NCBI RefSeq assembly: GCF_001427525.1 | Contig: NZ_LMGU01000001.1 | Location: forward strand, 2,265,185 to 2,329,184 | DNA from: Microbacterium sp. Root61 | GTDB lineage: Bacteria; Actinomycetota; Actinomycetes; Actinomycetales; Microbacteriaceae | Direction: 5' to 3' | Length of the DNA stretch: 64,000 nt | Shown here: positions 31,229 through 58,016 of the stretch, piece after piece | Position numbering within the stretch: the first letter of the stretch is position 1 | How the letters are laid out: each line of letters opens with the position of its first letter | Notes under the pieces: model-generated | What the model saw: only the letters and a program-made list of their open reading frames with translations | What the model was told of the DNA's origin: nothing | Databases searched by the model: none | Position numbers and translations under genes: made by a program

Positions 31229-32110
31229 TCACCGTTCGATGGGCGGGATGCCGTGGTCGAGGATGCCGGAAGGAACTTGTCCGTCCCATTGGTTGATCCA
31301 ATAGAGGTCGTCTTCGTCCCAGAGGCGTGCCGGCCGGGCGGGGTCTTGGATCAGTTCCATGTCGGTGTAGAGCTCGATGACGGCACCAGTGGGTTCGATG
31401 TAGTAGACCGCGATATTGTCACCGGCACCGTGCCGGACCGGTCCCCACGCCAGGCGCGCCCCGCGACGAGCGAGGCGATCGCCGAGACGTCCCAGATCGG
31501 TGATGTTCTGGGTCTGCCAGGCGTGGTGGTGCAGCCCGGTGCGTTCGCTCTTGAACACGGCGATGCCGTGGTGGTCGTTGTTGCACCGCAGGAAGAACGC
31601 AGCATCCGTTCCGATCTGGTCCGACACCCGGAAATCCAGCACGTCGACGAGAAAGTCGCGCTGCGCGAGCGGATCGGTCACCTGCACGTTGACATGCCCG
31701 AACCGGTCCGGTCCGAACCCACCGGTCTTCTTGATGCTGTACTGCGCCGGCTCGGCGAAGATCTGCCAGGTGAAGCCCTCCGGGCCGACGAACGCGAACC
31801 CGGATTCAACGGTCTCCTCCAGCGGGCTCTCACTCACGATCCGATATCCGGCCCGGTCCACACGTTCACGGATCTGCATGACGGCGTCGGCGTCGGCCGC
31901 GATCAGGCCGACGTGATCGAGCGCGTCGCGCTCACTCTGCGTGTAAACGATCTCGCGCGCCACGTCTTGGGCGGCCAAATGCGAGGTCGTGCCGCGGTTG
32001 GCGACCTCGCGCAACCCGAGAGCTTCGGTCGCGTTCGCGACCGAAGCTCCAAGGTCGGTGGTCTGCAAGGACACGTAGCCCAAGGCACTGATGACAGGGG
32101 AAGACGACAT
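31229..32110 (-). CDS. type I extradiol ring-cleavage dioxygenase (catechol 2,3-dioxygenase-like)
   Basis: Fe(II) enzyme that would cleave a catechol next to the hydroxyl pair, 293 residues, start ATG 32110 after AGGAGTGTC (longer frame to 32245 rejected). It has two vicinal-oxygen-chelate domains. Metal ligands by family position are His139 (FGHVNV), His195 or His196 (TGLHHHAW) and Glu246 (VIELYTD). It is the last gene of the 13-gene operon, next to an FAH hydrolase and a flavin monooxygenase, which form the logical hydroxylate-cleave-hydrolyse trio. Confidence 0.92.
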   Translation of the reverse strand: MSSSPVISALGYVSLQTTDLGASVANATEALGLREVANRGTTSHLAAQDVAREIVYTQSERDALDHVGLIAADADAVMQIRERVDRAGYRIVSESPLEETVESGFAFVGPEGFTWQIFAEPAQYSIKKTGGFGPDRFGHVNVQVTDPLAQRDFLVDVLDFRVSDQIGTDAAFFLRCNNDHHGIAVFKSERTGLHHHAWQTQNITDLGRLGDRLARRGARLAWGPVRHGAGDNIAVYYIEPTGAVIELYTDMELIQDPARPARLWDEDDLYWINQWDGQVPSGILDHGIPPIER

Positions 32111-32156
32111 TGACACTCCTGAAATGTTCGGGATGAAAGTGGTGGGAACGAAACGA

Positions 32157-33008
32157 CTACTCGACGAACTTCTGACGCAACTCGCCCACGCCCTCGATCC
32201 ACGAGACCAGCTCGTCGCCGGGCTGCAAGAACCGTTGCGGGTCACGACCGATCCCGACTCCCGCAGGCGTGCCGGTGAAGATCAGGTCGCCCGGATAGAG
32301 CTCCACGACCTGGGTCAGCTCACTCACCAACCTCGCGACAGGGAAGATCAGATCCCGTGTGCGCCCGTCCTGCACCGTCTCACCATTGATCGCGCACCCC
32401 AGAGCCAGATCATCCCGATCGGCAAGCTCGTCAGGGGTGACCAGCCACGGACCCACGGGCGCGAACCCGGGGAAAGACTTTCCGAGCCCGAACTGCGGCG
32501 CCGGCCCCCGCAACTGCACAATCCGCTCCGACAGGTCCTGACCGACCGTGACCCCGGCCACGTAGTCCCACGCCTCGTCGCGACCGACCTGGTGAGCGGT
32601 CCGACCGATCACGACGACCAACTCGACCTCCCAATCCGTGTTGCCGCCCGCCGGCAACGTCACCACCGTGTCCGGACCCGACAACGACGACGCGAACTTC
32701 GTAAACGTCGGCGGCAGATCCACCGGCTCCGCAAAGCCCGACTCCGCCGCATGAGCCCCATAATTCAAGCCGATCGCGAACACCTGTCGAGGTGCTGGCG
32801 ACGGCGACCCCAACTCCGTGGCGGCAAAGGTCATCCGCGCCGTTTCGCTGAGGTCCGCGCTGTCTGCCCACGCACGAAAGCCATCCCATTCCGCGTACAC
32901 CGTGTGAGTATCGGGTCCGAACGCAAGATCGCTCGCCTCTGCGACATCCACTCCCTCACCATCACCCGTGACCAAGACGGCACGTCCGCCCACATTTGCA
33001 AGCTTCAC
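32157..33008 (-). CDS. FAH-family hydrolase/isomerase (acylpyruvate or meta-cleavage product)
   Basis: Metal-dependent enzyme of 283 residues acting on the ring-opened product or on fumarylpyruvate. The N-terminal FAH_N-like region is followed by AIGLNYGAHAAESGF, the metal pair in WEVELVVVIG, VTVGQDLSERIVQ, GLGKSFPGFAPVGPW and IFTGTPAGVGIGRDP, which is standard for the 5-oxopent-3-ene-1,2,5-tricarboxylate decarboxylase/acylpyruvase group. It lies 46 nt before the extradiol dioxygenase gene. Confidence 0.92.
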   Translation of the reverse strand: MKLANVGGRAVLVTGDGEGVDVAEASDLAFGPDTHTVYAEWDGFRAWADSADLSETARMTFAATELGSPSPAPRQVFAIGLNYGAHAAESGFAEPVDLPPTFTKFASSLSGPDTVVTLPAGGNTDWEVELVVVIGRTAHQVGRDEAWDYVAGVTVGQDLSERIVQLRGPAPQFGLGKSFPGFAPVGPWLVTPDELADRDDLALGCAINGETVQDGRTRDLIFPVARLVSELTQVVELYPGDLIFTGTPAGVGIGRDPQRFLQPGDELVSWIEGVGELRQKFVE

Positions 33009-33102
33009 GTTTTGTTTCCTTTCAGTCGTGAACAGATTGATTCCGGCGCACTAGCCGCACCGGCTCCGCACAGTGGCGGGACCTTCTCAGGCGTATCGCG
33101 CG

Positions 33103-34695
33103 CTATCGCACACCCGTCGTCGCGCGAACGCGGGCGACGAAGTCGACGACCACCTCGTGCAATTCGGCGGGCGAGTCGGCCGTGCCGAAGACGTAGAAGT
33201 CGGGACGCACCAGAACGGCCCGCGTGCCGAGCCCGTCAAACCACTCCGCATAGGTGCCGTAGACGTCGAAGAACGACTCGACTCCCGTGGTTGCGGCATC
33301 CGCTCCGAACGCCACCACAGCGATACCGAGTTCTCGCAAGGCCGCGATATCTGTATCGGCGATGCCCGCGGCGAGTTCGCCGCGCACAATCAATGCACCG
33401 GCGCCGAAGACATCATCGAAACGCTCGTCTTCGACACTGCGCTCGGTCGAGATTCGCCCCTGCCAGGACAAGGTGCCACCGTGCTCACCGCGGTGCACCC
33501 CATCACCGAGCCGCGGAGCCGGCGGCGGCTCGGCGGTGACGCCGCTGGCGCGAACCGCTTTCATGCTCTCGTCGCGCTGTCGCGCAGCCTCGGGATCGGT
33601 GATGCAGATGATCTGCCCCAGCGACATCGAGAACTGGATGAACTCTGCCAGATGGGGCTGACGCTCACTCTCGACGGTGTCGAGCAAGGCATCGTCGGCG
33701 ATACCGCGGAGCACGAGGTCGAGTTTCCACGCCAGGTTGATGCAGTCGCGAAAGCCTGCGGCCAGACCTTGACCAGCGAACGGGGGCATGAGGTGCGCCG
33801 CGTCGCCGACCACGAACACTCGTCCCTGCTTCCACTCCTTCGACCAACCCGAGTTGAAGGTGTAGACCACGCCCCGATCGAGGATGGCATTGTCTGCGGT
33901 GACTCCGAACGGCCCCAGCAGCTCCCAGATCCGCTCCGGCTTGGTGAGCTCCTCAACAGTCTCGCCCTCGAGGCGCATGAATTCCCACCGGCGGCGGCCG
34001 GGGCCACCGGGTACGACTGTCGTCGGGCGACGCGGATCGCATACCTGCTTGGCGAGGTGCGTTACTTTGAGTCCCTCCCGCGGTCGAATATCCACCACGA
34101 GCCAGTCGTAGAAGTAACCCAAGTCGTTCCACTCGATACCGAGCTGTTTGCGCGTTGCGCTGTTCGCGCCATCTGCGCCGATCACATACTTGGCACGGAC
34201 GAGAGCCTGGTCGTTGTCGCCGTCGATCGAGACCGTGACGCCGTCTTGATCTTGGTCCACCACTTTGGCCGACACACCACGCCGACGGTCCACGTTCTCG
34301 AAGGAGGCGAGCCGCTGCTCGAGATGGGCCTCGAGAGATGGCTGGTTGTAGAAGTAGGTGTTGTTCCACCCGGACGGATCGACGCCCCGCCAGTCGACCT
34401 CGTGGAGAACTTCGTCGTCGCCGTTGACCCAGACATACAGATCGTCGTACGGCTCTACAGCGTCGGGCATGGAGTCCGGGTTCATTCCCGCCGTTTGCAG
34501 CAGACGCGCGATTTCAGCGTCATGAGCGACAGCACGGGGCAGCCCGTAGGTCTCAAGCTTCCGTTCGGTCAGCAGCACGGAGTGGCCGGCACGCGCGAGC
34601 ATGAGGCCGATCATTTTGCCGACCGGGCCCATGCCGATGACGACTACGTCGAATTCACTAGCGAACGACGTGGGTCGGGGTGCATCTTGCGTCAT
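33103..34695 (-). CDS. FAD-dependent aromatic monooxygenase (MhpA/PheA-like)
   Basis: Flavin hydroxylase of 530 residues, start ATG 34695. N-terminal dinucleotide fold FDVVVIGMGPVGKMIGLML, then the NAD(P)H/FAD motif IGADGANSATRKQLGI and the FAD ribityl site FVVGDAAHLMPPFAGQGLAA. The C-terminal thioredoxin-like domain (about 400-530) is the type seen in 3-(3-hydroxyphenyl)propionate and resorcinol hydroxylases. It should add a hydroxyl group to a phenolic ring and feed the extradiol dioxygenase. It lies 94 nt before the FAH gene. Confidence 0.93.
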   Translation of the reverse strand: MTQDAPRPTSFASEFDVVVIGMGPVGKMIGLMLARAGHSVLLTERKLETYGLPRAVAHDAEIARLLQTAGMNPDSMPDAVEPYDDLYVWVNGDDEVLHEVDWRGVDPSGWNNTYFYNQPSLEAHLEQRLASFENVDRRRGVSAKVVDQDQDGVTVSIDGDNDQALVRAKYVIGADGANSATRKQLGIEWNDLGYFYDWLVVDIRPREGLKVTHLAKQVCDPRRPTTVVPGGPGRRRWEFMRLEGETVEELTKPERIWELLGPFGVTADNAILDRGVVYTFNSGWSKEWKQGRVFVVGDAAHLMPPFAGQGLAAGFRDCINLAWKLDLVLRGIADDALLDTVESERQPHLAEFIQFSMSLGQIICITDPEAARQRDESMKAVRASGVTAEPPPAPRLGDGVHRGEHGGTLSWQGRISTERSVEDERFDDVFGAGALIVRGELAAGIADTDIAALRELGIAVVAFGADAATTGVESFFDVYGTYAEWFDGLGTRAVLVRPDFYVFGTADSPAELHEVVVDFVARVRATTGVR

Positions 34696-34789
34696 TGCAA
34701 ATCTTCTCTGTTCGTGGTCTTCGCGGTCTTTGGCTCTCTGGTGGAGCGCGACGATCTGGACACGTTCGTGGGTTGACGCAACCTCGGCG

Positions 34790-35245
34790 TCAGAGCACGA
34801 CCGAGATGGCAAGCGCCACGAGCGACGCGACCGCTGGTACCGTGCGGATCAGGTGTAGCCGACGCCATCGAACACGGAGATCCTCGACGTTCGGTGGCGC
34901 CTCCCCCTCCTTGCGGCGACGGAACTGCGAGTTGATACGTTCCGGAAAGGCGATCGACAGGACGATCACAAGGAGGACCAGCCCGATGCCGATCCAAGCG
35001 AACGTCGACGCGAGGCCCACCGATGAGAGCGCGAAGACCACGGCGGCGACGGTCGCGACGATGCCGAGAATCGGCTGCAAGGGGTCGGCCCGATATACCG
35101 AGCGGCGGAAGTCGACCACGTACTGGTCGATCGGCATCCGTCCCCACAGGTTCACGCGCTCGACGGCATACGTGAAGATCACGCCGGCCCAGAGCCCGCC
35201 AGCGACGAGCATCACCACCGCGCTGATTTGTGTTGCAAGGGTCAC
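34790..35245 (-). CDS. DUF1772-like integral membrane protein
   Basis: Protein of 151 residues with four hydrophobic helices: QISAVVMLVAGGLWAGVIFT, a central LGIVATVAAVVFALSSVG, IGIGLVLLVIVLSIAF and a C-terminal LIRTVPAVASLVALAIS. Helix 1 with W-GV-F, NRVN-like ERVNLWGRMP and the final R-LH-RT-PA pattern fit DUF1772, the family of anthrone-oxygenase-like proteins. A role in oxidation or membrane transfer of an aromatic is plausible. It sits between the flavin monooxygenase and an MBL gene. Confidence 0.7.
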   Translation of the reverse strand: MTLATQISAVVMLVAGGLWAGVIFTYAVERVNLWGRMPIDQYVVDFRRSVYRADPLQPILGIVATVAAVVFALSSVGLASTFAWIGIGLVLLVIVLSIAFPERINSQFRRRKEGEAPPNVEDLRVRWRRLHLIRTVPAVASLVALAISVVL

Positions 35246-35316
35246 CGTTGACTGCCTTTCATAGAGCCGTTGGCCGAAGCTGGCCAGATGTCACGAGGTC
35301 CTAGCCGACCCGGAGT

Positions 35317-35952
35317 TCACACATCCTGAGCGACGCCTTCATCGAGCACGAGGAGCTCAGAGGACGGCACGAGATTCTTCAGGAGTCCGTAGTGCAGCTG
35401 GCGGTGCACGTCGGCGAGCCCAGCTTGATGAATGGGCACGATGACGCGTGGGGCGACCGCCTTCGCGAAATCGATCGCATCGGCGACCTTCATCCACGGT
35501 CCGCCGACCGGAAGGAGCAGCACATCCACGTGGCGTGGCACTGCGTCGAAGGCGTCGCCGGGGTGCCACACCGCGTCGTCCAAGATGAATCCGCTGTTGG
35601 CCACGGCCGGCAGTGTCGGGTAGATCGGTGCATGGAGGGCACCCGTGGGCTGCACCCGAATGCCCGCCGCTTCGAACGGCATCTCGTCGGCGACCTGCCT
35701 GTCCCCTGGTCGACCCGCGCCCGCCGCGGCCGTTGCTTCGGCATTGGCTACCAGGATTGCGCCTGGGTTCGCCTCCCGCAGGGCGACGAGGCGCGCGGCA
35801 TCGAGGTGATCCGCGTGCGCATGGGTGACGAGAATCACGTCCAGCTCTGTCATCGATTCGAATCCACTCGAGTATGTGCCCGGGTCAAAGAGCGCCCTCC
35901 CCCCGTCGGTCTCGACGAGGACGGCGGCGTGGCCGAAGTGTGTGAGTCTCAT
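35317..35952 (-). CDS. MBL-fold hydrolase, UlaG-like
   Basis: Zinc hydrolase of 211 residues, start ATG 35952 after GGGGAG (longer frame to 36132 rejected). It begins MRLTHFGHAAVLVE and carries VTHAHADHLD (His44, His46, Asp48, His49), WHPGDAFD and PIHQAGLAD, all typical of the short UlaG-type beta-lactamase group that acts on lactones or cyclic phosphates. In this operon it could open a lactone formed after ring cleavage. Confidence 0.85.
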   Translation of the reverse strand: MRLTHFGHAAVLVETDGGRALFDPGTYSSGFESMTELDVILVTHAHADHLDAARLVALREANPGAILVANAEATAAAGAGRPGDRQVADEMPFEAAGIRVQPTGALHAPIYPTLPAVANSGFILDDAVWHPGDAFDAVPRHVDVLLLPVGGPWMKVADAIDFAKAVAPRVIVPIHQAGLADVHRQLHYGLLKNLVPSSELLVLDEGVAQDV

Positions 35953-35983
35953 ATCGATCTCCCCAAATTGCTCTGCACAGGAA

Positions 35984-36664
35984 TCAGATCCACTCGCGAA
36001 GCGGTGGTCGCGCCAGATCAGGCGGAATGCCTTCGACACCGGCCACACGACCGGTGGCCCATGCGAGTAGTTCTTGGGCCGGCCCCGTGACGACGGTGAG
36101 ACCGTGGTCGCCAGCCGCGCGCACGTGGGCACGCGTGGGATCGATCACCAGCCGAATCTCCTCGAGCTCCGATCCGAGCACATCGGGGAGCAGGGCCACC
36201 GCGATCTCGGCATCGTCGTCCGGGAGGTCCGCCAGCGAGCGACCGAGGTCCGCGTGGTGGACGACGACTTGCAGCAGCCGGCGCCCGGGAATCCCCGCCA
36301 TTTCATCGGACAGTGCGTTCCAGTCGCCCACGCCCGAGATGGCTGCATTCAGGCGTTCCGTCGACACGTGCAGGTCATCGAGGATTACGGCGCCGGGCCG
36401 GAGGTTGCCGCCCTCGTCGTTCTCCCACTGGCGTCCCGGGTCAGATGGCGGAACGACGCGTCCGGTCGCTGCCAGCAGGCTGTCAGCCATCCGGTCGGCC
36501 TCGCGGGCCAAGTAGGTGATGATGTGCCCGCCCGTCAGCGTCCCGTTGAGAATTGAATAGTCCAGGAAGTCGTACTCCAGAAAGACGGTGAAGGCTCGAT
36601 CCATGAGCCGATCGCTCTCCCGTTGCAGCGACTGCACCACGGACTGCAGCTCAACGGTTGTCAT
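35984..36664 (-). CDS. mycothiol-dependent maleylpyruvate isomerase family protein
   Basis: DinB-like four-helix protein of 226 residues with an MDMPI-type C-terminal domain, start ATG 36664. A metal His is in GGHIITYLAREADRM (His47). The second site reads QVVVHHADLGRSL (His137/138). At the position where I expect a metal-binding Glu four residues before the His there is Gln133. Known members isomerise maleylpyruvate to fumarylpyruvate in gentisate catabolism with mycothiol. Here the substrate may be another cis-enoylpyruvate, and the Gln suggests changed metal binding. Confidence 0.8.
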   Translation of the reverse strand: MTTVELQSVVQSLQRESDRLMDRAFTVFLEYDFLDYSILNGTLTGGHIITYLAREADRMADSLLAATGRVVPPSDPGRQWENDEGGNLRPGAVILDDLHVSTERLNAAISGVGDWNALSDEMAGIPGRRLLQVVVHHADLGRSLADLPDDDAEIAVALLPDVLGSELEEIRLVIDPTRAHVRAAGDHGLTVVTGPAQELLAWATGRVAGVEGIPPDLARPPLREWI

Positions 36665-36675
36665 GACTCCCCCAC

Positions 36676-37386
36676 TCACGCGAATGCCCTCGTCCTGCCG
36701 GCCGAGCGCACCAGATAGTCGAACCCGGCATGGAGCTGCGTCGGATTCCACACCTGGTCGCGTTTGAACGCGGTCTCCGCGGCGTCGGTCCAGATCTTCG
36801 CGCCGCCGGCCGCGAGTGCGTCGAGTTGGGTTCGACACGCCCGTTCCAGCAGCACCGAGTACATCACCGCTGTGGCGATGTCGGGCCCGACGGTCACAGC
36901 TCCGTGGCTGGGCAGGAGGATCGCGTTGGCGGATCCGAGCGCCGTGGCGACATCCTCGCCCAGCTCCGCCGTTGCGATCAGCGACCCGGTCACCGATGTC
37001 AGCCTCGGCAGCTGAGGGTGGGTGAAGGGAACGCCGTCGTGTGAGAGCGGTTGGAGGGGGACATCGAGGGATGCGAAGGCGGCGAGCGCGGGGGCATGAG
37101 TGTGCACGACCGCGTGCACATCGGGCCGGGCGAGGTAGGGCTGTGCGTGTATCGGGTACTCGATGTGGCGGCGCCCGGTGCCGACCAGGACCTCGCCTCC
37201 CCAAGAGACGAGCACGACGTGGTTGGCGTCGATCTCCTCGAACCCGTACCCCGCCGCTTTCATCCAGACGCCGCGACCCGCGTTGTCGCGAACGGATGGG
37301 TGGCCCCACACCATGTCGCTGAGGCCGGCCGCCGCCAGGGCTGCGCACCCCGCGATCACATCGTCGATATGCGTTGCGTCGCTCAT
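36676..37386 (-). CDS. class II aldolase/adducin family protein
   Basis: Zinc-dependent aldolase or decarboxylase of 236 residues. The metal site is complete: Glu76 in HIEYPIHAQPY, His95 and His97 in VVHTHAPALAAFA and His161 in PSHGAVTVG. The fold is shared by fuculose-phosphate aldolase and by aromatic decarboxylases of the 4-hydroxy-oxo-acid type. It starts 4 nt inside the end of the ferredoxin gene and probably splits or decarboxylates an intermediate of the ring-cleavage route. Confidence 0.88.
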   Translation of the reverse strand: MSDATHIDDVIAGCAALAAAGLSDMVWGHPSVRDNAGRGVWMKAAGYGFEEIDANHVVLVSWGGEVLVGTGRRHIEYPIHAQPYLARPDVHAVVHTHAPALAAFASLDVPLQPLSHDGVPFTHPQLPRLTSVTGSLIATAELGEDVATALGSANAILLPSHGAVTVGPDIATAVMYSVLLERACRTQLDALAAGGAKIWTDAAETAFKRDQVWNPTQLHAGFDYLVRSAGRTRAFA

Positions 37387-37715
37387 TTGCCGCCTCGTTC
37401 CGTAACTAGTTGTGTGTCTACGCCTAACGGGCCGAAGCTCGACGCACCGCCCGGGTCGCCAATCGGCTCAGACCTCGTCGGCAATGGCAATTCGAAGAAC
37501 GCGCGGTTATCCGCCATCCATACAGGGTCCGGCCCGTCACTCGGGGACTTGATCGCGGCGACAGGGCACGCGGTGACGCATGCTCCGCAGTCGATGCATT
37601 CGTTCGGGTTGATGTAGCGCTTCTCGAGACCCTCGTAGATGCAGTCCACCGGACACACATCGACACACGAGCCGTCGAGCTCACCGATGCATGCGTCGTC
37701 GATGACGTAGGCCAT
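37383..37715 (-). CDS. fdxA: seven-iron ferredoxin
   Basis: Small electron carrier of 110 residues. Cys pattern: C9, C17, C21, C25, then C40, C43, C46, C50, in CIGELDGSCVDVCPVDCIYE and CIDCGACVTACPV. This suits one [3Fe-4S] and one [4Fe-4S] cluster as in mycobacterial FdxA. The C-terminal tail of about 50 residues is usual. It lies 1 nt after the reductase gene and overlaps the aldolase start, so it is dedicated to this operon. Confidence 0.95.
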   Translation of the reverse strand: MAYVIDDACIGELDGSCVDVCPVDCIYEGLEKRYINPNECIDCGACVTACPVAAIKSPSDGPDPVWMADNRAFFELPLPTRSEPIGDPGGASSFGPLGVDTQLVTERGGK

Positions 37716-37716
37716 T

Positions 37717-38718
37717 TCAGGCTCCTATCCGGGCAGGTTCAGGACGGCTGAGTTCGGAGGAGTGTCCGGGGAAGACCTCTTCACCCGGACGGAGGATGAC
37801 GGCGATGTTGTTGACGGCCGTGGCTGCTTCTCCGAATCCGACGGCCATGAGTCGAACCTTGCCCGGGTAGTCGGTGATGTCTCCCGCGGCGAACACCTTG
37901 GAACGACCGGTGGACATGTTCGTTGCGACGTCGATCTGACGGCCTCTGATAGACAGGCCCCATCCGGACAGCGGACCGAGTGAGGCGATGTGTCCGAGGG
38001 CGGGAATGACGACGGATGCCGGGACGGTCTCCACATCACCGGTCTTCGCGTTCCGGATGACGATGTGGCGAACGGTCTCGTCACCCAGGACTTCCGAGAT
38101 CTCGGACTCCAGAACGACGCGCGCGGCGGACTCGCGAAGCCGCGCGACAGAGCTCTCGTGCGCCGTGAAGCCGGCACGACGATGGATGAGGGTGACGGAA
38201 CGTGCCGTTTCGGCGAGCATGTTCGCCCAGTCGACTGCGCTGTCGCCCCCGCCCACGATGACGACGTCATGTTCCGTGTATTCCACGGCCGGACCGACGA
38301 GCCGATGGATGCCAGCACCTCGGTAGACGTCGACGGCTGGCAGCGGTCGGGGTGTGAACCGACCTATTCCTCCCGTGATGAGGACCGCACCGCACTCGAT
38401 CTGCGTTCCCGCGGTCGTCGTCACGCGGATGGAGCCGTCCACCTGGTCTTCGACGGTGGAGCACTCCTCACCGAGGATGATGTGAGGGTCGGCGCTGGAC
38501 GCCTGCTCGACCAACCCGGCGATGAGATCGCGCCCGTGAACGGCGGGGAACCCGGCGACGTCGTAAACGAACTTCTCGGGGTACAGGGCGGACACCTGAC
38601 CGCCGAGATGGGTGAGGCTGTCGACGAGCACGACGCTCAGTCCACGCATTCCGGCGTAATACGTGGCGAAGAGACCGGCGGGGCCGGCACCGATGATGAG
38701 GAGGTCAGCAGTCGGCAT
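37717..38718 (-). CDS. ferredoxin-NADP reductase, thioredoxin-reductase-like type
   Basis: FAD/NAD(P)H flavoprotein of 333 residues. FAD site LLIIGAGPAGLFATYYAG at the N-terminus, NAD(P) site VVIVGGGDSAVDWANML, and VFAAGDITDYPGKVRLMAVG at the end. The LGGQVSALYPEKFVYDVAGFP stretch and the lack of a CxxC redox pair identify the type II FNR (YumC) group rather than thioredoxin reductase. With the adjacent ferredoxin it makes a complete NAD(P)H-to-ferredoxin chain for an oxygenase in this operon or nearby. Confidence 0.93.
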   Translation of the reverse strand: MPTADLLIIGAGPAGLFATYYAGMRGLSVVLVDSLTHLGGQVSALYPEKFVYDVAGFPAVHGRDLIAGLVEQASSADPHIILGEECSTVEDQVDGSIRVTTTAGTQIECGAVLITGGIGRFTPRPLPAVDVYRGAGIHRLVGPAVEYTEHDVVIVGGGDSAVDWANMLAETARSVTLIHRRAGFTAHESSVARLRESAARVVLESEISEVLGDETVRHIVIRNAKTGDVETVPASVVIPALGHIASLGPLSGWGLSIRGRQIDVATNMSTGRSKVFAAGDITDYPGKVRLMAVGFGEAATAVNNIAVILRPGEEVFPGHSSELSRPEPARIGA

Positions 38719-38721
38719 GGG

Positions 38722-39735
38722 TCACGTCCACAGGAGTCCGTCGGTGAGGGGCTCCTCACCGACGAGGTCGTCGTACGCCTGCCGAGCACTGTCGTGCAAG
38801 GGCACGGGTGTGTTGCGCATCTCGGCGGGGTCGAGCGGGTAGCCAAGCGGCGTGCGATCCTGCGGCATGTGCGCGTATTGCCCTTCGATCGCCCTGCGCG
38901 TTTTGACCATGCACCAGGTGGCGAGATACGCGACTTCGGGGTCGAGGTCCTCTCGGCAGAGCAGGACGAAGTCGGCGAAGTCCAGGGTGAGCAGATCGCG
39001 GTCGAGGGAGGGGAGGTACCCCTTCTCCACGACAGCGCTGGGCCAGCCGAGCGCAGCGAAGCCGTTCAGCACCGTGTCACCCCACTCGAGGTACCGGATC
39101 GGTCGGCGGTCCGCGATGCGTTGCCAGGCAGGCATCATGATTGCTTCCTGAATCAGGACGTTCACCGCACCGGTGGCGAAGGCATGCACCAGAGGGAATG
39201 GCCGCTCGTCGTAAAGGAACTTTGTTCCACGTCGACGAAGCTCGTGCGGGTCCGCTCCTGCCAGCGTCAACCCCAAATGGGCGGCGAGACCGATGGCATT
39301 GACCCCGTCATCCTGGGATGTCCCGATGATCAGGTCCGAGGCCACGTGCGTGAAGTCGGCGACACTCGTCACCGGGAGGTCCGCATCGACGGCGACGACG
39401 AGACGGTCCCGATGGGCGATCTTGCCGAGTGCGCGCAGCCATGGCGCGGCCGGCCTCCCCGCGGGTCCCGAGCCGTCGTGCAGCAGGCGTGCGGCGGCGG
39501 CCGGCGTGGCGAGCGCGATGTCGACCAGGCCGGCCTCCAACGCGTCGACAGCGTCGGCGCCACCCCTGCCCGCGTGAATCGAGAACTCCGACCCCGCAGG
39601 GGACCGGTCGCCGATCTCCTGCGACAGCCACCCGGAGATGCGTGTCAGGTTGGCCTGCCCCCAATCAGCCTTGAACCGAAGGCGGACGGGTTTCGAGAGC
39701 CTCGGCTCCGTCGTAGCTGCCGCAGTCAACGTCAT
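38722..39735 (-). CDS. TAXI/periplasmic-binding-fold protein lacking a signal peptide
   Basis: Protein of 337 residues with a type-2 solute-binding pattern similar to TAXI (TRAP-associated) proteins: GGADAVDALEAGLVDIALAT, IGTSQDDGVNAIGLAA, NVLIQEAIMMPAWQRIADRR, VAYLATWCMVKTRRAI. The N-terminus (MTLTAAATTEPRLSKPVRLR) has no hydrophobic segment and no lipobox, so it should stay in the cytoplasm, and no TRAP membrane genes are near. Binding folds can become enzymes, as in 4,5-dihydroxyphthalate decarboxylase. A decarboxylase or accessory role here is inference. It overlaps the preceding small gene by 4 bp. Confidence 0.75.
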   Translation of the reverse strand: MTLTAAATTEPRLSKPVRLRFKADWGQANLTRISGWLSQEIGDRSPAGSEFSIHAGRGGADAVDALEAGLVDIALATPAAAARLLHDGSGPAGRPAAPWLRALGKIAHRDRLVVAVDADLPVTSVADFTHVASDLIIGTSQDDGVNAIGLAAHLGLTLAGADPHELRRRGTKFLYDERPFPLVHAFATGAVNVLIQEAIMMPAWQRIADRRPIRYLEWGDTVLNGFAALGWPSAVVEKGYLPSLDRDLLTLDFADFVLLCREDLDPEVAYLATWCMVKTRRAIEGQYAHMPQDRTPLGYPLDPAEMRNTPVPLHDSARQAYDDLVGEEPLTDGLLWT

Positions 39736-39998
39736 GCCGGAATGGCGTCGAGGCCGGCCTTGTCAACGGTGTAGTGAACCTCGTTGACGACATCGACGGG
39801 CCAGCCGATGCGATCGAATTCCTTGCGCACTGCGGCTTCGTCGGCGGCTTCGTACAGGGTCACGATGGAACCCTTTTCCAAGTTGATCCACACCTGCTGG
39901 AACTCGGCGTAGGTGTTGAGCTTGATTTCCGGCACGTACGCGGCGACCTCTGCCGGGTCGAGTGCGGGAGCCTGGTGAACGCTGATGAAGAGTGTCAT
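39732..39998 (-). CDS. small ferredoxin-fold protein, DUF4242-like
   Basis: Protein of 88 residues. The pattern EVAAYVPEIKLNTYAEFQQV, then GSIVTLYEAADEAAVRKEFD and WPVDVVNEVHYTVD matches the DUF4242/SCO4226-type dimeric alpha-beta barrel family, some of which bind nickel. No catalytic residue can be assigned. It ends in an ATGA overlap with the binding-fold gene. Together with the two cupin genes upstream it may form part of one enzyme assembly; function unknown. Confidence 0.65.
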   Translation of the reverse strand: MTLFISVHQAPALDPAEVAAYVPEIKLNTYAEFQQVWINLEKGSIVTLYEAADEAAVRKEFDRIGWPVDVVNEVHYTVDKAGLDAIPA

Positions 39999-40069
39999 GA
40001 CTTTCTCCTTGTTTCGTGGTTTTTAACGGTGGGCAACGTCGCCCACCGCGACTAGCGGAGGTGAGGTCT

Positions 40070-40612
40070 TCAGATCGCGGAGGGCTCTGCGGTCCACCCG
40101 AGCTGCTCGAGCGAGATCTCGTCTGCGACGGTCCCGCAGGTCGGGCACGTCCTCTTCGGAAGGTCTTCGTTGAAGCGGCGGACGATCTCGGCATAGATGG
40201 CGACGGCCTCGACATCGAGATCCTGCTCCCACTCGAGCCGGTCCAGCTCTGCGTCGCAGCGTTCGCAGGCGAAGATGGCGGCGCGGTACGCGGGGTCATT
40301 GCCGATGAACCGGATGAGCACACTCTCACCGTCGGGCTCGAGCCGGTGCGGGGTACCCGCAGGCACGTAGACGTGGTCCCCGGGGATCACAGGCCAGTAC
40401 TTCACGTTGGTATCGCGGAGCCGCACGTTGGCGCTTCCCGACATCAGCGCGAGGACAGTGTCCTCTTCGAACGCGATGTAGAAGGGCTGCGTCACCCAGT
40501 TGCGAGAAATCGTGATCTGCGGATCAACATCGGCAGGCATCACGGGAACGTCGGCATAGTTGCCCACCTCCTTTGCCGCCTCGAAGGTCTGCAGCATCCG
40601 TCGACGGGCCAT
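40070..40612 (-). CDS. cupin protein with C-terminal CxxC pairs (3-hydroxyanthranilate dioxygenase-like), subunit B
   Basis: Cupin of 180 residues related to bacterial 3-hydroxyanthranilate 3,4-dioxygenase. Motif 2 is present (PGDHVYVPAGTPHRL, His80 and His89). In motif 1 the usual His/Glu ligands are absent (YIAFEEDTVLALMSG). The C-terminus keeps the rubredoxin-like metal site, C116/C119 and C156/C159 (FACERCDAE, RTCPTCG). It starts inside the stop of the partner cupin gene (ATGA at 40609-40612). The loss of ligands suggests a non-catalytic or complementing subunit. Confidence 0.8.
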   Translation of the reverse strand: MARRRMLQTFEAAKEVGNYADVPVMPADVDPQITISRNWVTQPFYIAFEEDTVLALMSGSANVRLRDTNVKYWPVIPGDHVYVPAGTPHRLEPDGESVLIRFIGNDPAYRAAIFACERCDAELDRLEWEQDLDVEAVAIYAEIVRRFNEDLPKRTCPTCGTVADEISLEQLGWTAEPSAI

Positions 40613-41358
40613 CAGCCGAGCACCTCCTTGGCGCTGGTAGCGAGCGCGTGGTAAGCCGCGTTCGACACCTTGGTCTGGTTGTAGAGCCGGTCCCAGCCCC
40701 ACACGTTCTGGTCGAACCAGTAGTTCTCGTGACCGCAGTTCTTGCAAGTGCGCACCTCATCTGAGTTCCGCGCCTTTACGAACTCTTGGCTACCCCACTG
40801 CGTCGAGAATTGAGGGAAGACGTCGGTTTCATCGCCGAAGGCGTTCGGGTCGTAGTCGGGGGTGCCTTCGGGCGCGGACGCGTACTCGAACTTGACGAGA
40901 TCCTGCCGACATTTCTCGCACTTGGCCGTCAGCGCCTCGCGCTGGCCTGCCTCCGCCGACTGGCGCTGAGTGATGGTGACGAGCGCGAACGCGCCGTCCT
41001 TCTTCTCATCGCGAAGGAAGGAGTTCACCCCGTGGAACGGCTGGGTGGCCATGAGCGAACCGGTGGGGATCATGGCTTCGTTCGAGCCCCACGCGACGAG
41101 CAGTTCGGACACAGTGTTCCAGTGGAAGAAGTGACCGTGGAATCGGTCCTCGCCGCCGTAGAGCATGGCGCCGCAGGGAACCATCACCCCGGCACCGTCG
41201 TACGGGAAGATCGGCATCAGCTGAGCGTTCGACTTCGACATCCGCTCATACACGCTCACCTTCAACGGTTCCCGCGGCCCACGCGGCGCGGGGACGTGCC
41301 GCGTCCTGGCAATGTCCGGCAATACGGCAACTGCCGCGCCGTCCTCAACGATCGACAT
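40612..41358 (-). CDS. cupin protein with C-terminal CxxC pairs (3-hydroxyanthranilate dioxygenase-like), subunit A
   Basis: Cupin of 248 residues, first gene of the 13-gene operon. Motif 1 is rich in ligands: His74, His76, His79 and Glu85 in FHGHFFHWNTVSE; a later His109 (TQPFHGVNS) stands at the motif-2 position. Two CxxC pairs, C147/C150 (AKCEKCRQD) and C205/C208 (RTCKNCGHE), mirror those of the following cupin. The pair looks like a heteromeric dioxygenase in which A supplies the iron site. Substrate unknown; a hydroxylated aromatic acid is likely from the neighbours. Confidence 0.8.
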   Translation of the reverse strand: MSIVEDGAAVAVLPDIARTRHVPAPRGPREPLKVSVYERMSKSNAQLMPIFPYDGAGVMVPCGAMLYGGEDRFHGHFFHWNTVSELLVAWGSNEAMIPTGSLMATQPFHGVNSFLRDEKKDGAFALVTITQRQSAEAGQREALTAKCEKCRQDLVKFEYASAPEGTPDYDPNAFGDETDVFPQFSTQWGSQEFVKARNSDEVRTCKNCGHENYWFDQNVWGWDRLYNQTKVSNAAYHALATSAKEVLG

Positions 41359-41725
41359 ACGAATCTCCCTCGATTCACAAGTAGGTCAGCATGTGTCACC
41401 ATACGGAACACTTTTTGACCAGATGTTGCAACCATAGCCATGGCGGTCCCGCGTAGCAAGCCCCTTTCCGCAGGATCCTCGGGCCGAAAGCGCCCTCGAT
41501 CGTAGAGTCGGCACGTGCGGAAGCTCCGATCGGCGAAGATCGGACCCGGCGTCCAGCCGACCTTGAGGAGAACGAAGCATGACAACGCATTGTCAACTTG
41601 ACGAATGATTCGACCGTTGGGTGGCATGCGTGTTGCTACACGCGTGGGGCCGTCGGTGCTCCCAACGAGGGGGCGGCGTCAGGAGAGGAATGCAGTCAGG
41701 ATGCCTCGCATGGCCCGACCCGTCC
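41359..41725. other. 367-bp leader region of the 13-gene operon
   Basis: No gene seen. It contains the perfect palindrome TGACAACGCATTGTCA (41580-41595), whose minus strand also holds TTGACA. It also holds a weaker inverted repeat TGTCACCATACGGAACA at 41394-41410, which is loosely like IclR-family sites and close to the first gene. Adjacent MarR and IclR genes make both plausible control points. No clear -10 box could be assigned. Confidence 0.5.
41580..41595. promoter_or_regulatory. MarR-type operator candidate
   Basis: TGACAA-CGCA-TTGTCA is a perfect 16-bp inverted repeat of the size and TTG/CAA-ended type bound by MarR dimers. It lies 131 nt beyond the MarR gene's stop and 222 nt before the first gene of the operon, on the path of its transcription. 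Confidence 0.55.
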
Positions 41726-42232
41726 TCAGCGTGATCGAGACTGCAACAGCCCGCGGAGGCGCCGCAACAGACGCATGACTTCAGCGATGTCCGTATCCGA
41801 CAGAATCTCCTCCATCGGGCCAGTCCATTCCGCACGCCAGCGCTCTAGCGCGGTCTCATACGAGACCCGACCAGCATCCGTCAGGACGACCAAACGGGCT
41901 CTGCGATGCTTCGGGTTCTCTCGGAGTTCGACGAGCCCGGCAGCGGACATCTCGTTTGCGAGGCGTTGCACGGCCTGACGCGACAGGCCCATGTTGCGAG
42001 CGATCTGCGATACCGGCAAAGGCGACTCGGACAAAGCGACGGCGCCCAGGACCAGCCATCGGGCGCTCGTAAGCCCAAAGTCCTTCACCGTGGCATCGCC
42101 GACGACGATGAGTCGGTCATTCACCCGGAAGATCTCGAAAATGAGCTCATCGATAGGGCGAGTCTCTCTGCGGAACACCACCCAATCGTGGCACGCCGAG
42201 CGCCGCTCTTCTGCCTCACCCCCGAGCGGCAC
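41726..42232 (-). CDS. MarR-family transcriptional regulator
   Basis: Winged-helix regulator of about 168 residues. The start is uncertain: GTG at 42232 is the longest, and GTGs 18-19 codons later (before VFRRETRPIDE) are possible. The recognition region is LPVSQIARNMGLSRQAVQRLANEMSAAGLV, followed by the wing ENPKHRRARLVVLTDAG. It lies in line with the IclR gene upstream and the 13-gene operon downstream. It probably senses an aromatic acid and controls the operon through the palindrome at 41580. Confidence 0.9.
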   Translation of the reverse strand: MPLGGEAEERRSACHDWVVFRRETRPIDELIFEIFRVNDRLIVVGDATVKDFGLTSARWLVLGAVALSESPLPVSQIARNMGLSRQAVQRLANEMSAAGLVELRENPKHRRARLVVLTDAGRVSYETALERWRAEWTGPMEEILSDTDIAEVMRLLRRLRGLLQSRSR

Positions 42233-42246
42233 CCCTCATGCTGCGT

Positions 42247-43050
42247 CTACGCGATGATCCCGCGAAACTCGTCGGCGATCGCCAGTGCCTGTGTGCGCGT
42301 TGCACGTATCCATGCTTCGTCGCTCCTCGAGCGCGGGGCTGTGACCGAAAGCGCGGCGCGGGCACGTCCTTCTCGATCCCGAAGAACGACAGCCACCGCG
42401 CTCACGTCCGGTTCAGTCTCACCGAAGTTGGTTGCATAGCCGCGAGCTCGCACGAGCTCCAGGTCTGCGAGGAGATCGACACGTCGCTTCGCCGTGACGC
42501 GGCTCTCGCCGAGTATGACCTCGTGGGGGAAGATGGCCTCCACCTCAGCGTCACTGAGTTCAGCGAGCAACACCTTGCCGCCCGCGGTCGAGTGCGCCGG
42601 CAGGTTCCATCCGATCCGGCTTGCAGTGCGCACCGGCTGACCGCTCTCGATGCTGTCCAGGCACAACACGTGGTCGCCTCGCAGGACCATCAGGTGGGCA
42701 GTTTCATTCGTCGTCCGCGCAAGCTTGGACAGTACGCCGCGCGCCATTGTGCGAAGGTCGCTGTCCTGGACAGCCGCAAGGCCGATCCCTGTCAGTGCCG
42801 GTCCCGGACGATACGAGCGCGTCACGGGTTCCTGTTCGACGTACCCATAGATTGCCAGCGTCGACAGGAGCCGGTGAACCGTGGAGCGCGATAGCCCGAG
42901 TTCCCGACTTGCGCGATTGACCTGAATGGTTTGACCGCCGGCAAACAGCTGAAGCAGTTCGAGAGCGTTCGCCACAGATCCGATCACCCCTGCTGGCCGA
43001 CCGCCGCGCGAATCAAGATCTGAGCTACCCACAGCGATGAAGTATTCCAC
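42247..43050 (-). CDS. IclR-family transcriptional regulator
   Basis: Regulator of 267 residues. N-terminal helix-turn-helix: VNRASRELGLSRSTVHRLLSTL (about residues 44-65), then the effector domain with NETAHLMVLRGDHVLCLDSI, GWNLPAHSTAGGKVLLAEL and GYATNFGETEPDVSAVAV. IclR proteins commonly regulate protocatechuate, phenylpropionate and related ring-cleavage operons. It ends 15 nt before the MarR start, so the two regulators are probably cotranscribed. Confidence 0.93.
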   Translation of the reverse strand: MEYFIAVGSSDLDSRGGRPAGVIGSVANALELLQLFAGGQTIQVNRASRELGLSRSTVHRLLSTLAIYGYVEQEPVTRSYRPGPALTGIGLAAVQDSDLRTMARGVLSKLARTTNETAHLMVLRGDHVLCLDSIESGQPVRTASRIGWNLPAHSTAGGKVLLAELSDAEVEAIFPHEVILGESRVTAKRRVDLLADLELVRARGYATNFGETEPDVSAVAVVLRDREGRARAALSVTAPRSRSDEAWIRATRTQALAIADEFRGIIA

Positions 43051-43219: not shown

Positions 43220-44647
43220 CTAGCCGCGGCGGGTCGCTTTGGCCACTGCAATCGTGCCTGTGTTCAGGTCCGTGCGAATCTGCGCGGCCTGGGCGTCGGT
43301 GATGCGGTACGCGAGCGCGGTCAGGATGGCGATCAATCCGATGATCGCTGGGAAGAGGTTCACGACGAAGTTGATTCCTTGCAGCGCCTCGGACGTCTGC
43401 TGGACGTTGGGCTGATAGCCGAAGATGCCGATCAGGAGGACCGACGCACCTCCGACGGCGAACGCGAGCTTCTGAGCAATCGAAACCAACGCAAAGGAGA
43501 TGCCATCAGCCCTCACTCCGCTCTTGTACTCGCCGTAGTCGGCGGCGTCCGCGACCATCGAGTAGGTGAGCGGGATCGTGAAGCCGGACAAACCGTGGAC
43601 GACCGTCAGCACGATGACCACTCCGAGGTTCGCCGGATCCACGAAGAACAACGCGGTCAGCGCGACCACTTGCACAGCCATGCCGATGATGAAGAGGTTG
43701 CGCTTGCCGATTCGGCGAGCGAATCGCGAGAACACAAGTGAGCCGACCAGCGCAGCGACGGGGCTCAAGGGGATCAGCAGGGGGACCAGTGGAGCGGCGT
43801 TCGCGCTGTAGATGTAGTAGTAGACGATCACCCCGAGGCGGCTGTAGAACGCGACACCGCCAAGGATCGTAAGAACGGCGACGAGGAAAAGTGGACCGTT
43901 GGTGAAGATCGCACTCAAGGTCTCCTTGAACGGCACTCGGTCCGTCCGCACCGGCTTCACCGTTTCGCGCGAAGTGCGGTACGTGACGAAGAACAGGATC
44001 ACGGCGATTACAGCGAACATCGCCGCGGTGAAGGTGAAGCCCTGAATGGAGATCGGCGTCCCCGATGATCCGCCGAATGCACCCACAAGCGGAAGCGTGA
44101 CCACACTGGTCGCCACAAGGCCGATCGAACCGAGCGCGAAGCGCATCGAGTTCATCGATACACGGTCGGCCGGCGTTTCTGCCATGACCCCCGAAAGTGC
44201 CGCGTAGGGAACATTGACAATCGAGTAGACCAGCCCACACACGCCGTAGGTGACGACCGCCCAGATGACCGCAGCAGCCGTGTCTCCCGGGAAGGGTGCG
44301 GTGAAAGTGAGGGCCGCGAAGACCCCGAGCGGCAGCGCTCCGAACATGATCCATGGCCGGAATCGGCCCCACCGGCTACGGGTTCGTTCGGAGACCGCGC
44401 CGACAGCTGCGTCGAAGATGCCGTCGAGCAAACGCGCGCCGAGGATGATCAAACCCGCGACGCTTGCCGAAATGCCGACCGCGTCCGTGTAGAACAGCGC
44501 CAGATAGCTCGACATGCCCGTGAAGACAAGGACGCAGGCTAGATCTCCCAAGCCGTAGCCGACGCGAGAAGACAACGGAAGTCGCGGCTTGCTTCCCATC
44601 GTGACCTTGTCCTGGTCGGCAATCCCTATTTCTGCGGATGATGACAT
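43220..44647 (-). CDS. GPH/MelB-type glycoside:cation symporter
   Basis: Sugar or glycoside permease of 475 residues with twelve helices. Family marks: RVGYGLGDLACVLVFTGMSSYLALFYTDA at the start, the ARLLDGIFDAAVGAVSERTRSRWGRFRPWI loop region, VPYAALSGVMAETPADR and DAADYGEYKSGVRADGISF. The GPH group imports melibiose-like or aromatic glycosides with Na+ or H+. It is the last gene of the operon epimerase-GMC-Gfo/Idh-symporter, so the substrate is likely a glycoside. Confidence 0.93.
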   Translation of the reverse strand: MSSSAEIGIADQDKVTMGSKPRLPLSSRVGYGLGDLACVLVFTGMSSYLALFYTDAVGISASVAGLIILGARLLDGIFDAAVGAVSERTRSRWGRFRPWIMFGALPLGVFAALTFTAPFPGDTAAAVIWAVVTYGVCGLVYSIVNVPYAALSGVMAETPADRVSMNSMRFALGSIGLVATSVVTLPLVGAFGGSSGTPISIQGFTFTAAMFAVIAVILFFVTYRTSRETVKPVRTDRVPFKETLSAIFTNGPLFLVAVLTILGGVAFYSRLGVIVYYYIYSANAAPLVPLLIPLSPVAALVGSLVFSRFARRIGKRNLFIIGMAVQVVALTALFFVDPANLGVVIVLTVVHGLSGFTIPLTYSMVADAADYGEYKSGVRADGISFALVSIAQKLAFAVGGASVLLIGIFGYQPNVQQTSEALQGINFVVNLFPAIIGLIAILTALAYRITDAQAAQIRTDLNTGTIAVAKATRRG

Positions 44648-44731
44648 TGTTTACTGCTCCTTTGCGGTAGACGTGAAACGACTTCGTTTCGATTTCGGTG
44701 AGTGTTTGCGATCGACTTTCGAACGGCGACT

Positions 44732-45919
44732 TCAGGCGGATGTCTCGACGGCCGCGGCTACATGGACCCAGGCGGATTCGTTCTGGTTCGAACGCTCGAC
44801 GGCCGCGAGTACGCGCTGCACCGACAGGCCCTCGGCGAAAGAAGGCTGAGGATCGGCACCTTTGACGATGGCGGTGACCAAGTCGACGACCTGGTGGCTG
44901 AACCCGTGCTCGTACCCGAGCAGATGCCCGGCCGGCCACCAAGCCTTGATGTACGGGTGGGTGCCATCGGTGACAAGGATCTTGGTGAAGCCTCGACGAT
45001 CCTCCGGGGCTGCGCGATCGTAGAAGTTGAGACTGTTCAGGTCCTCCATATCGAAGGCCAGCGCACCCTTGTCGCCCGAGACCTCGATGGTGAGAGCGTT
45101 CTTTCGGCCCGTCGCAAAGCGGCTCGCCTCGAACGACACCAGTGCTCTGTTCGACAGGCGACCGGTGAAGATCGCAATGTCGTCCACAGTCACTGCGCCG
45201 AAATTCGAGCCCGCTGTACCCGTGGGCTCGGAGCCCGATACGTTCAGTGGCCGCTCCCTCACGATCGTGTCGAGCGCGCCCGAGACAGATTCCACTCGAG
45301 ACCCCGTGACGAACTGAGTCATGTCGACAATGTGTGCGCCGATGTCGCCAAGCGCCCCCGACCCGGCGTGCTCCTTCTGCAGACGCCAGGCGAGAGGCAC
45401 CGAGCGATCCACGAGCCAGTCCTGCCGATACGCGGCGCGCACCTGCTGAACGTCTCCGACAACGCCTTCGGCGATCAGCTCCCGCAGGAACATCACGGCG
45501 GGGACCCGTCGATAGGTGAACCCCACCATCGAGCGCACTCCGCGCTTTGCGGCACGGACGGCGGCGTCGGCCATCGCTTCGGCCTCGTCAACCGTGTTCG
45601 CGAGTGGCTTTTCGCACAAAACGTGCTTGCCAGCGTCGAGCGCGGCGATAGCGATCGCGGCGTGTGAGTCGCCAGGGGTGACGATGTCGACGATGTCGAT
45701 GTCATCCCGCGCGACTACTGCGCGCCAGTCCGTCGCGGCCTCGGCCCATCCCCACTTGTGGGCGGCCTCACGCACAGAACTCGCATTGCGTCCAACGATG
45801 ACCGCCATCTCAGGCTCACCCGGCAGGTCGAACACGCGCGGCGCCTGCCGCCAGCCCACGGAGTGGGCGGCCCCCATGAAGCCATGGCCGATCATGGCAA
45901 CCCGCAGCGTTCGTGTCAT
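44732..45919 (-). CDS. Gfo/Idh/MocA family oxidoreductase
   Basis: NAD(P)-dependent dehydrogenase of 395 residues. Rossmann start RVAMIGHGFMGAAHSVGW, intact HVLCEKPLANTVDEAEAM, and GSGALGDIGAHIVDMTQFV with substrate-site Asp/His. It closely follows the pattern of the YrbE/AfuS-like proteins that handle 3-keto sugars. Its ATG overlaps the stop of the GMC oxidoreductase gene by 4 bp. It could reduce a 3-keto-glycoside or the released 3-keto-sugar. Confidence 0.9.
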   Translation of the reverse strand: MTRTLRVAMIGHGFMGAAHSVGWRQAPRVFDLPGEPEMAVIVGRNASSVREAAHKWGWAEAATDWRAVVARDDIDIVDIVTPGDSHAAIAIAALDAGKHVLCEKPLANTVDEAEAMADAAVRAAKRGVRSMVGFTYRRVPAVMFLRELIAEGVVGDVQQVRAAYRQDWLVDRSVPLAWRLQKEHAGSGALGDIGAHIVDMTQFVTGSRVESVSGALDTIVRERPLNVSGSEPTGTAGSNFGAVTVDDIAIFTGRLSNRALVSFEASRFATGRKNALTIEVSGDKGALAFDMEDLNSLNFYDRAAPEDRRGFTKILVTDGTHPYIKAWWPAGHLLGYEHGFSHQVVDLVTAIVKGADPQPSFAEGLSVQRVLAAVERSNQNESAWVHVAAAVETSA

Positions 45920-51681: not shown

Positions 51682-52139
51682 TGGAACCCGTGCTGGACTA
51701 CGTCTTCGAGATTCGCGCCCGTATCGATCCCGACGTGCATATCGGGCGCGGGCCCGACGAGAAGCTCTCGTTCACGCCCGTATCTGGGGGCACAGTCTCC
51801 GGCCCCCGCCTGAGCGGCGTGGTCCTGGCTGGAGGTGGAGACTGGGCGGTCGAGCGCTTCGGGACCGCCCAACTTGAGGCTCGGTACATGATCCGCACCG
51901 AGGATGGCGCGGTGATCGACATCATCAATCGTGGCTACTTCCGCGCGACGCCGGAACTGATCGAGCGCATGGAGCGCGGGGAGGACCTTCCCGAGGATGA
52001 GCCCGGTCTCTACTTCCGCACCGCCCCCGTGTTCCAGACCGATGCCCCGCAGCACCGTTGGCTGGCGGAGAACCAGTTCATCGGCCTCGCACGCGACGAA
52101 GACGGACACGTCTGCATCCGGGTGTATCTGCTCACCTGA
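51681..52139 (+). CDS. DUF3237 family protein, copy 1
   Basis: Protein of 152 residues starting at ATG 51681, overlapping the CocE stop by one base. Barrel-like family pattern: LDYVFEIRARIDPDVHIG, FTPVSGGTVSGPRLSGVVL, GGDWAVERFGTAQLEARYMI, INRGYFRATPE, PVFQTDAPQHRWLAENQFIG. DUF3237 function is not established. A second member, related in its whole length, lies at 57490 in the same operon. Confidence 0.85.
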   Translation: MEPVLDYVFEIRARIDPDVHIGRGPDEKLSFTPVSGGTVSGPRLSGVVLAGGGDWAVERFGTAQLEARYMIRTEDGAVIDIINRGYFRATPELIERMERGEDLPEDEPGLYFRTAPVFQTDAPQHRWLAENQFIGLARDEDGHVCIRVYLLT

Positions 52140-52210
52140 CCAAGAACGTCCGCGCGAGATCCTCCCCTCACTCGATACGCAACGATCCGATCATCCGAAA
52201 GGGAAACACC

Positions 52211-53857: not shown

Positions 53858-53890
53858 TCGTCTGACCCGCATCGTCCACTGCCGAGCGCA

Positions 53891-53936: not shown

Positions 53937-53987
53937 CTCGCAGAGACCTGCACCTGATCCCCTGACCCGGAGCGAGGATTCGCCACT

Positions 53988-57474: not shown

Positions 57475-57489
57475 ATCGAGAACCCCCTG

Positions 57490-57969: not shown

Positions 57970-58016
57970 TCGCACCCACCGGCCTGATCCCCCTCCAGAC
58001 AGAGAGTGACCTCCAC

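Follow-up and report, generated by a model that had tools for sequence, protein, structure and literature searches.

A stretch of 64,000 nucleotides of Microbacterium sp. Root61 DNA (contig NZ_LMGU01000001.1, positions 2,265,185 to 2,329,184; referred to here as the window) was analysed, and thirteen minus-strand genes at 31229-41358 were found to consist of a conserved module of nine genes, led by two cupin genes (designated cupA and cupB) and accompanied by IclR- and MarR-family regulator genes, together with a four-gene add-on that is found again close to the module in some of the relatives. Judging from the gene content and its conservation, and from the predicted fold and conserved residues of cupA, there is about an even chance that these genes encode a regulated route for breaking down a hydroxylated polycyclic or two-ring natural product, in which a flavin monooxygenase (FMO), an extradiol dioxygenase and an FAH-family hydrolase would remove one ring, while cupA-cupB, their redox partners and an aldolase-fold enzyme would process the rest.

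Gene content and conservation of the cluster

An earlier note on this DNA had described thirteen genes on one strand with short gaps or overlaps, and inspection of the open reading frames (ORFs) in the window found all of them on the minus strand, in the families named there. The order from 41358 downwards is cupA, cupB, DUF4242, TAXI-like, ferredoxin-NADP reductase (FNR), ferredoxin, class II aldolase, MDMPI-like, MBL, DUF1772, FMO, FAH and extradiol, with a spacing of -4 to 94 bp, from which we infer that they may form a single transcript. A simple codon-usage gene caller called 12 of the 13 ORFs; it passed over the ORFs of ferredoxin (37383-37715) and MarR, and gave a shortened IclR gene. 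The ferredoxin was accepted on the strength of its family match (NF045480, 107 bits, cut-off 125) and because relatives conserve it.

Related loci were collected by scanning one genome per species with two peptide patterns taken from 23 of 95 cupA relatives, which yielded 32 stretches; cupA is encoded in 29 of them, 21 actinobacterial (L005-L025) and 8 non-actinobacterial (L026-L033). Several loci end at contig ends, so all gene counts are lower bounds. In this gene-neighbourhood comparison, a check which the earlier note had proposed, the order from cupA through MBL was identical in L005, L006, L008 and L014, and in L007 as far as the contig end (5 of 29 other loci), a recurrence beyond what chance would give. 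Both regulator genes, which lie upstream on the same strand, belong to the conserved unit by comparison with L005-L008. The IclR-family gene (42247-43050; PF01614, 2e-37), the first of the module, precedes MarR-cupA in these four loci with an identity of 65-70%, and the MarR-family gene (41726-42232; PF12802, 9e-16), present in 6 of the 29 loci, is 71-74% identical in L005-L008.

Across the 21 actinobacterial loci, IclR was found in 19, the TAXI-like protein and ferredoxin in 18 each, the aldolase and FAH in 16 each, FNR in 13, FMO in 11, MBL in 10, MDMPI in 9, the two-domain extradiol enzyme in 8, MarR in 6 and DUF1772 in 5; the small DUF4242 (SCO4226-like) protein (39732-39998; PF14026, 1.3e-7) was present in 26 of all 29. 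In several loci of Mycobacterium, Nocardia and Streptomyces the parts are split into two divergent groups. FMO, FAH and extradiol genes follow straight after cupA-cupB in L009, L010 and L011; in L015, and with a changed order in L020, one gene on the opposite strand comes between, and L012 lacks such an arrangement. On a Phaeobacter plasmid the same three stand together with TAXI, cupA, cupB and an IclR gene. The thirteen genes are not one indivisible set: genes 1-9 (cupA to MBL) with IclR and MarR form the conserved module, and genes 10-13 are an add-on.

The closest named cupA relatives are from Microbacteriaceae. Searches for cupA found it in the genome analysed here alone among 198 of the genus, and in 2 of 394 genomes of the class, this one counted, and such rarity suggests acquisition by transfer. 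In the mycobacterial relative L010 the cluster is flanked by MCE/MlaE-type importer genes, and one such gene lies in L009, which fits a lipophilic substrate.

The eight loci L026-L033, from records titled Chloroflexota, Myxococcota-type and Rhodospirillaceae, carry a DUF4242-cupA-cupB trio with no ferredoxin, FNR, TAXI, FMO, FAH or MBL matches. The gene after the trio in L031 encodes an ABC ATPase and the following one appears permease-like by eye, while a 488-amino-acid protein (L031:3713-5179) adjoining the trio in L031-L033 has no Pfam match at 1e-4.

The cupA-cupB pair

In all 29 of the 29 loci scanned, cupB stands directly after cupA; these loci come from records titled as four phyla. cupA (40612-41358) has no Pfam or NCBIfam family match, and its relatives, where sources name them, are hypothetical or uncharacterised. 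The best match to its predicted structure, ahead of everything else, was 3-hydroxyanthranilate 3,4-dioxygenase (HAO). An HAO-like triad of His-x5-Glu and a later His (His79/Glu85/His109) was present in all 23 sequences of alignment A1 (23 of 95 proteins found); these residues would correspond to the metal ligands of HAO. A CxxC...CxxC pattern is also present in cupA.

The likelier start of cupB (40070-40612) is at 40612, where TGATG gives a one-base overlap with the cupA stop, and the same overlap is seen in L005-L008. Family scans with cupB gave weak Cupin_2 and weak HAO matches, and its profile (A3) finds HAO chains with an E value of 9e-8; against the curated HAO model, cupB scored 24.6 bits (cut-off 220) and cupA had no match. 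The CxxC...CxxC pattern is present in 26 of 26 cupB sequences. The first two metal ligands are absent, with a loose His-x5-Glu-type version in 1 of 31. cupA and cupB are distant relatives, sharing 22% identity over 63 residues and matching as profiles with a probability of 96% over the C-terminal half. cupA is the probable catalytic subunit and cupB the probable partner subunit.

The pair resembles HAO in its cupin fold (cupA), its sequence relation (cupB), its His-Glu-His triad (cupA) and its CxxC...CxxC (both). It differs from HAO in being encoded by two adjacent genes, one lacking the first two ligands, in scoring far under the HAO model cut-off, in having redox partner genes in many of its loci, and in the absence of kynurenine genes from the thirteen. 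The view of the earlier note, that this is an aromatic catabolic cluster with the cupin pair as a possible oxygenase, is supported.

Redox partners, the binding-fold protein and the aldolase-fold enzyme

The FNR (37717-38718; PF07992) is TrxR-like with no CxxC in an alignment of 14, and the FdxA-like ferredoxin is encoded directly downstream. Other electron carriers were found beside cupA-cupB elsewhere: on the Phaeobacter plasmid an HcaD/AndAa-like ferredoxin reductase lies on the opposite strand beside SCP2-cupA-cupB, with flavodoxin-like pieces after the following IclR gene, and on a plasmid of Sphingobium AntQ-1 cupA-cupB are followed by a 2Fe-2S reductase. The occurrence of three different electron carriers beside the pair suggests that electrons matter for cupA-cupB.

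The TAXI/NMT1-like binding-fold protein (38722-39735; PF16868, NMT1_3, 26 bits, cut-off 27) has no signal peptide. Its N-terminus is not hydrophobic (0.12, versus 2.33 and 2.03 for exported-looking controls), and no hydrophobic N-terminus was present in 19 of 20 homologues among the matches listed, the twentieth being cut off by the locus end; 53 columns are invariant in 16 aligned sequences. The protein shares its fold family with the binding proteins of TAXI TRAP transporters (the Phaeobacter copy scores 64 bits with TIGR02122, cut-off 84), and differs from them in the missing signal peptide and in the absence of a TRAP permease among the thirteen genes. These features make a function in the cytosol, as an enzyme or a carrier of ligands, more probable than one in transport. 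A binding-fold protein beside cupA-cupB in AntQ-1 was considered as possibly Pht5-like; it had no NCBIfam match and only Phosphonate-bd in Pfam, and the resemblance was not used as evidence.

The class II aldolase-fold enzyme (36676-37386; PF00596, 7e-38) has solved relatives which include the NovR decarboxylase and 2z7b, the latter active on a pyridine dicarboxylate, as well as sugar-phosphate aldolases; a weak match to NF053537 (70 bits, cut-off 200) was also obtained. It is predicted to be an aromatic decarboxylase or an aldolase. The module is completed by an MDMPI-like protein (35984-36664; TIGR03083, 40 bits, cut-off 50) and an MBL-fold hydrolase (35317-35952; PF13483, 4e-23) whose HxHxDH motif, read by eye from the translation, is intact. 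The add-on encodes an Anthrone_oxy (DUF1772-type) membrane protein (34790-35245; PF08592, 38 bits, cut-off 27), a group A, MhpA-like FMO (33103-34695; NF004829, 549 bits, cut-off 390), the FAH-family hydrolase (32157-33008; PF01557, 1e-64) and a two-domain VOC extradiol dioxygenase (31229-32110; PF00903, 2e-16; TIGR03211, 118 bits, cut-off 320).

Proposed pathway and alternatives

We infer the following steps for a catabolic cluster acting on a hydroxylated polycyclic or two-ring compound. The FMO would hydroxylate a phenolic, resorcinol-like ring beside a hydroxyl group, the extradiol enzyme would open the hydroxylated ring, and the FAH enzyme would cut the resulting diketo acid, so that the other ring would remain as an aromatic acid. 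The two cupins would form a heteromeric HAO-fold iron-dependent oxygenase with the metal in cupA and with cupB as structural or electron-relay partner, and the ferredoxin and reductase would provide electrons or keep its iron in the reduced state. A dicarboxylic intermediate would be decarboxylated by the aldolase-fold enzyme, perhaps with the help of the cytosolic TAXI-fold protein, and a lactone or ester would be opened by the MBL enzyme. The relatives would then channel the product through 3-hydroxybenzoate and gentisate. Possible substrates include a peri-hydroxylated quinone, a flavonoid or another two-ring compound.

A further-reaching proposal, which we put forward tentatively and consider doubtful, is that cupA-cupB constitute a new two-subunit HAO-fold oxygenase receiving electrons from a dedicated ferredoxin chain via cysteine-bound metal sites, alongside a TAXI-fold protein turned enzyme, in an undescribed polycyclic hydroxyaromatic route common to Actinomycetota and Pseudomonadota. 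Were the pair a reductant-linked ring-cleaving cupin, it would represent a new kind of oxygenase for aromatic catabolism and would explain genes whose present annotation is unknown or a transporter component. Clusters of this type are also easy to find by means of the pair.

The gentisate exit is drawn from the relatives. Among the 21 actinobacterial loci, a gentisate 1,2-dioxygenase (GDO)-like gene was found in 12 and a 3-hydroxybenzoate 6-hydroxylase-like gene in 11; the relatives' proteins scored 257 bits (cut-off 442) as gentisate 1,2-dioxygenase and 352 bits (cut-off 459) as 3-hydroxybenzoate 6-monooxygenase. Since these genes are interleaved with the module, the product probably enters the gentisate pathway in those organisms. 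Like the gentisate pathway with a mycothiol-dependent maleylpyruvate isomerase, the cluster analysed here has MDMPI-like and FAH genes. At a position which we take to be a metal ligand, however, the MDMPI-like protein has Gln, as do 5 of 9 aligned sequences (the window copy included), where the remaining 4 (L009, L012, L020 and L022) have Glu. No close 3-hydroxybenzoate hydroxylase was found in the Root61 genome, the best match being 29% identical.

Several results weigh against the proposed route. cupA gave no match to HAO at the sequence level, even as a profile, and HAO itself works without a reductant. No homologue of this ferredoxin or FNR was found in any of the eight loci L026-L033 (two of these contigs measure about 3.4 kb, and the check for other redox types was limited), and the redox partner is therefore not universal. 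L008 (20.7 kb) carries the module and nothing that matches FMO, FAH or the extradiol enzyme. The Root61 genome gave no gentisate dioxygenase, either with a relative's protein as query (the same search matched 3 of 4 other genomes) or with TIGR02272 (which matched 4 of 14 control genomes, none above its cut-off), and none was found in the genome of L008 with the relative's protein. Given this result and the Gln at the presumed ligand position of an isomerase-like protein that falls only weakly within its family, the complete route envisaged in the earlier note is unsupported in this genome; of the gentisate-type chemistry it had proposed, the part that stood is the presence of the relevant genes in relatives.

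The L008 locus would be expected if two unrelated pathways lay side by side, a cupA-cupB module for one compound and FMO-FAH-extradiol for an alkylresorcinol. An FAH-VOC-FMO set was likewise found on a Streptomyces plasmid on which tblastn detected no cupA, and FMO relatives on two plasmids adjoin maleylacetate reductase and intradiol dioxygenase genes. From these last two observations, genes 11-13 most likely serve to attack a ring of the resorcinol type. Independent pathways are nevertheless rather unlikely, as the joined cupA-cupB-FMO-FAH-extradiol arrangement in L009, L010 and L011, the near-joined ones in L015 and L020 and the Phaeobacter plasmid set are hard to explain by chance.

Two suggestions for the substrate are partly compatible with the proposed two-ring route. 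The DUF1772 gene would have a role if the substrates were peri-hydroxylated quinones (juglone type, 1,8-dihydroxyanthraquinones or anthrones), with the DUF1772 protein converting an anthrone to the quinone, ring opening giving a hydroxyphthalate and the aldolase-fold enzyme decarboxylating this to 3-hydroxybenzoate. The Anthrone_oxy gene of the cluster is the only match in its genome, and the genomes of 11 relatives hold 0-4 copies each, so that about 0.1 neighbours would be expected by chance in 21 loci, a figure based on a biased sample of 12 genomes (Root61 and those of 11 of the 21 loci, including 4 of the 5 DUF1772 carriers). Aldolase-fold decarboxylases of aromatic dicarboxylates also exist (the weak NF053537 match; 2z7b), and cupA-cupB are found on a plasmid of an anthraquinone degrader, Sphingobium AntQ-1. 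No bacterial DUF1772 protein is known to act on anthrones, and the gene is present in a minority (5 of 21) of the actinobacterial relatives. The AntQ-1 paper, in its accessible text, assigns anthraquinone breakdown to other genes, and the word "cupin" does not appear in its main text. Quinones were judged a rather improbable substrate.

The other suggestion is flavonoid or isoflavone catabolism as in fde (Herbaspirillum) or ifc (Variovorax), in which the FMO would act at C8 of the A ring, the extradiol enzyme would open the ring and the cupins would process the pyranone. The group A FMO occurs here together with a VOC/glyoxalase-family extradiol enzyme, as in the fde/ifc type. By its description, in the accessible text, the ifc cluster of Variovorax V35 has the same functional trio of group A FMO, glyoxalase-family dioxygenase and cupins in one catabolic cluster (PMC11069340), and the fde naringenin operon has an FMO (PMC11303751). 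Genes neighbouring the present cluster also resemble a glycoside oxidation set. The two Variovorax cupins, IfcD1 and IfcD2, are 65% identical according to the accessible text (PMC11069340), whereas cupA can hardly be aligned with cupB. The accessible ifc and fde texts describe no HAO-like pair, and the ferredoxin/FNR, TAXI-like and class II aldolase genes are extra here. The gentisate exit of the relatives is at odds with a 4-hydroxyphenyl B ring, and the four glycoside genes are absent from all 29 loci searched. Flavonoids were on balance considered an unlikely substrate.

No published cluster with this gene set was found among open-licence PMC papers (a collection that mostly leaves out subscription journals), in agreement with the earlier statement that the cluster matches no known set. 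The riboflavin/lumichrome pathway of Microbacterium and Nocardioides (PMC12746152) and the Sagittula cluster for polycyclic aromatic hydrocarbons (PMC11705938) were set aside, as the accessible text of each describes a different gene set, and "fde" does not occur in the accessible text of a Herbaspirillum transcriptome paper (PMC4440368).

Regulation

A palindrome, TGACAA-N4-TTGTCA, lies before cupA at 41580-41595. It is exact in the window, L006 and L007, with one base changed in L005 and L014 and two in L008; in these five same-order relatives its distance to cupA is 164-288 bp, which places it between MarR and cupA or, in L005 and L006, across the end of the MarR gene. It is the only exact match in the window, while two matches with up to 2 mismatches were found where 0.9 would be expected by chance. 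The element is regarded as a probable operator because of its exact match and conserved place, the mismatch count being near chance. An open palindrome count allowing 3-8 spacer bases also matched L011, L016 and L034, so such half-sites alone mean little. No promoter was found in a sigma-70 scan. A second element just before cupA at 41391-41412 (AGTGTTCCGTAT.GTGACACAT) is common to L007 and L008, is not shared by L005, L006 or L014, and is a possible regulator site.

Neighbouring genes

Upstream of the cluster, at 43220-48257 on the minus strand, are genes for a GPH symporter, a levoglucosan-dehydrogenase-like Gfo/Idh protein, a GMC enzyme resembling pyranose/C-glycoside oxidases and a xylose-isomerase-like TIM barrel. 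This set may feed aglycones to the cluster; it is not conserved with it, none of the four having been matched in the 29 loci. A link to C-glycosides (carminic acid, puerarin; CarABC/PurABC), suggested by the GMC gene, was rejected, as no CGDB gene was found in the genome and none of the four glycoside genes was matched in the 29 loci. The C-glycoside deglycosidase beta subunit family PF19906 was not found in this genome and was found in 19 of 79 genomes of a genus sample that included it.

Elsewhere in the window, a plus-strand run at 50014-59669 includes genes for an X-Pro peptidase-like hydrolase (S15), two DUF3237 proteins, a family 5 binding protein and an Amidohydro_3 enzyme, with further genes between. 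A second FAH-family gene lies beside an MBL gene at 10118-12082 on the minus strand and is possibly part of another small catabolic operon.

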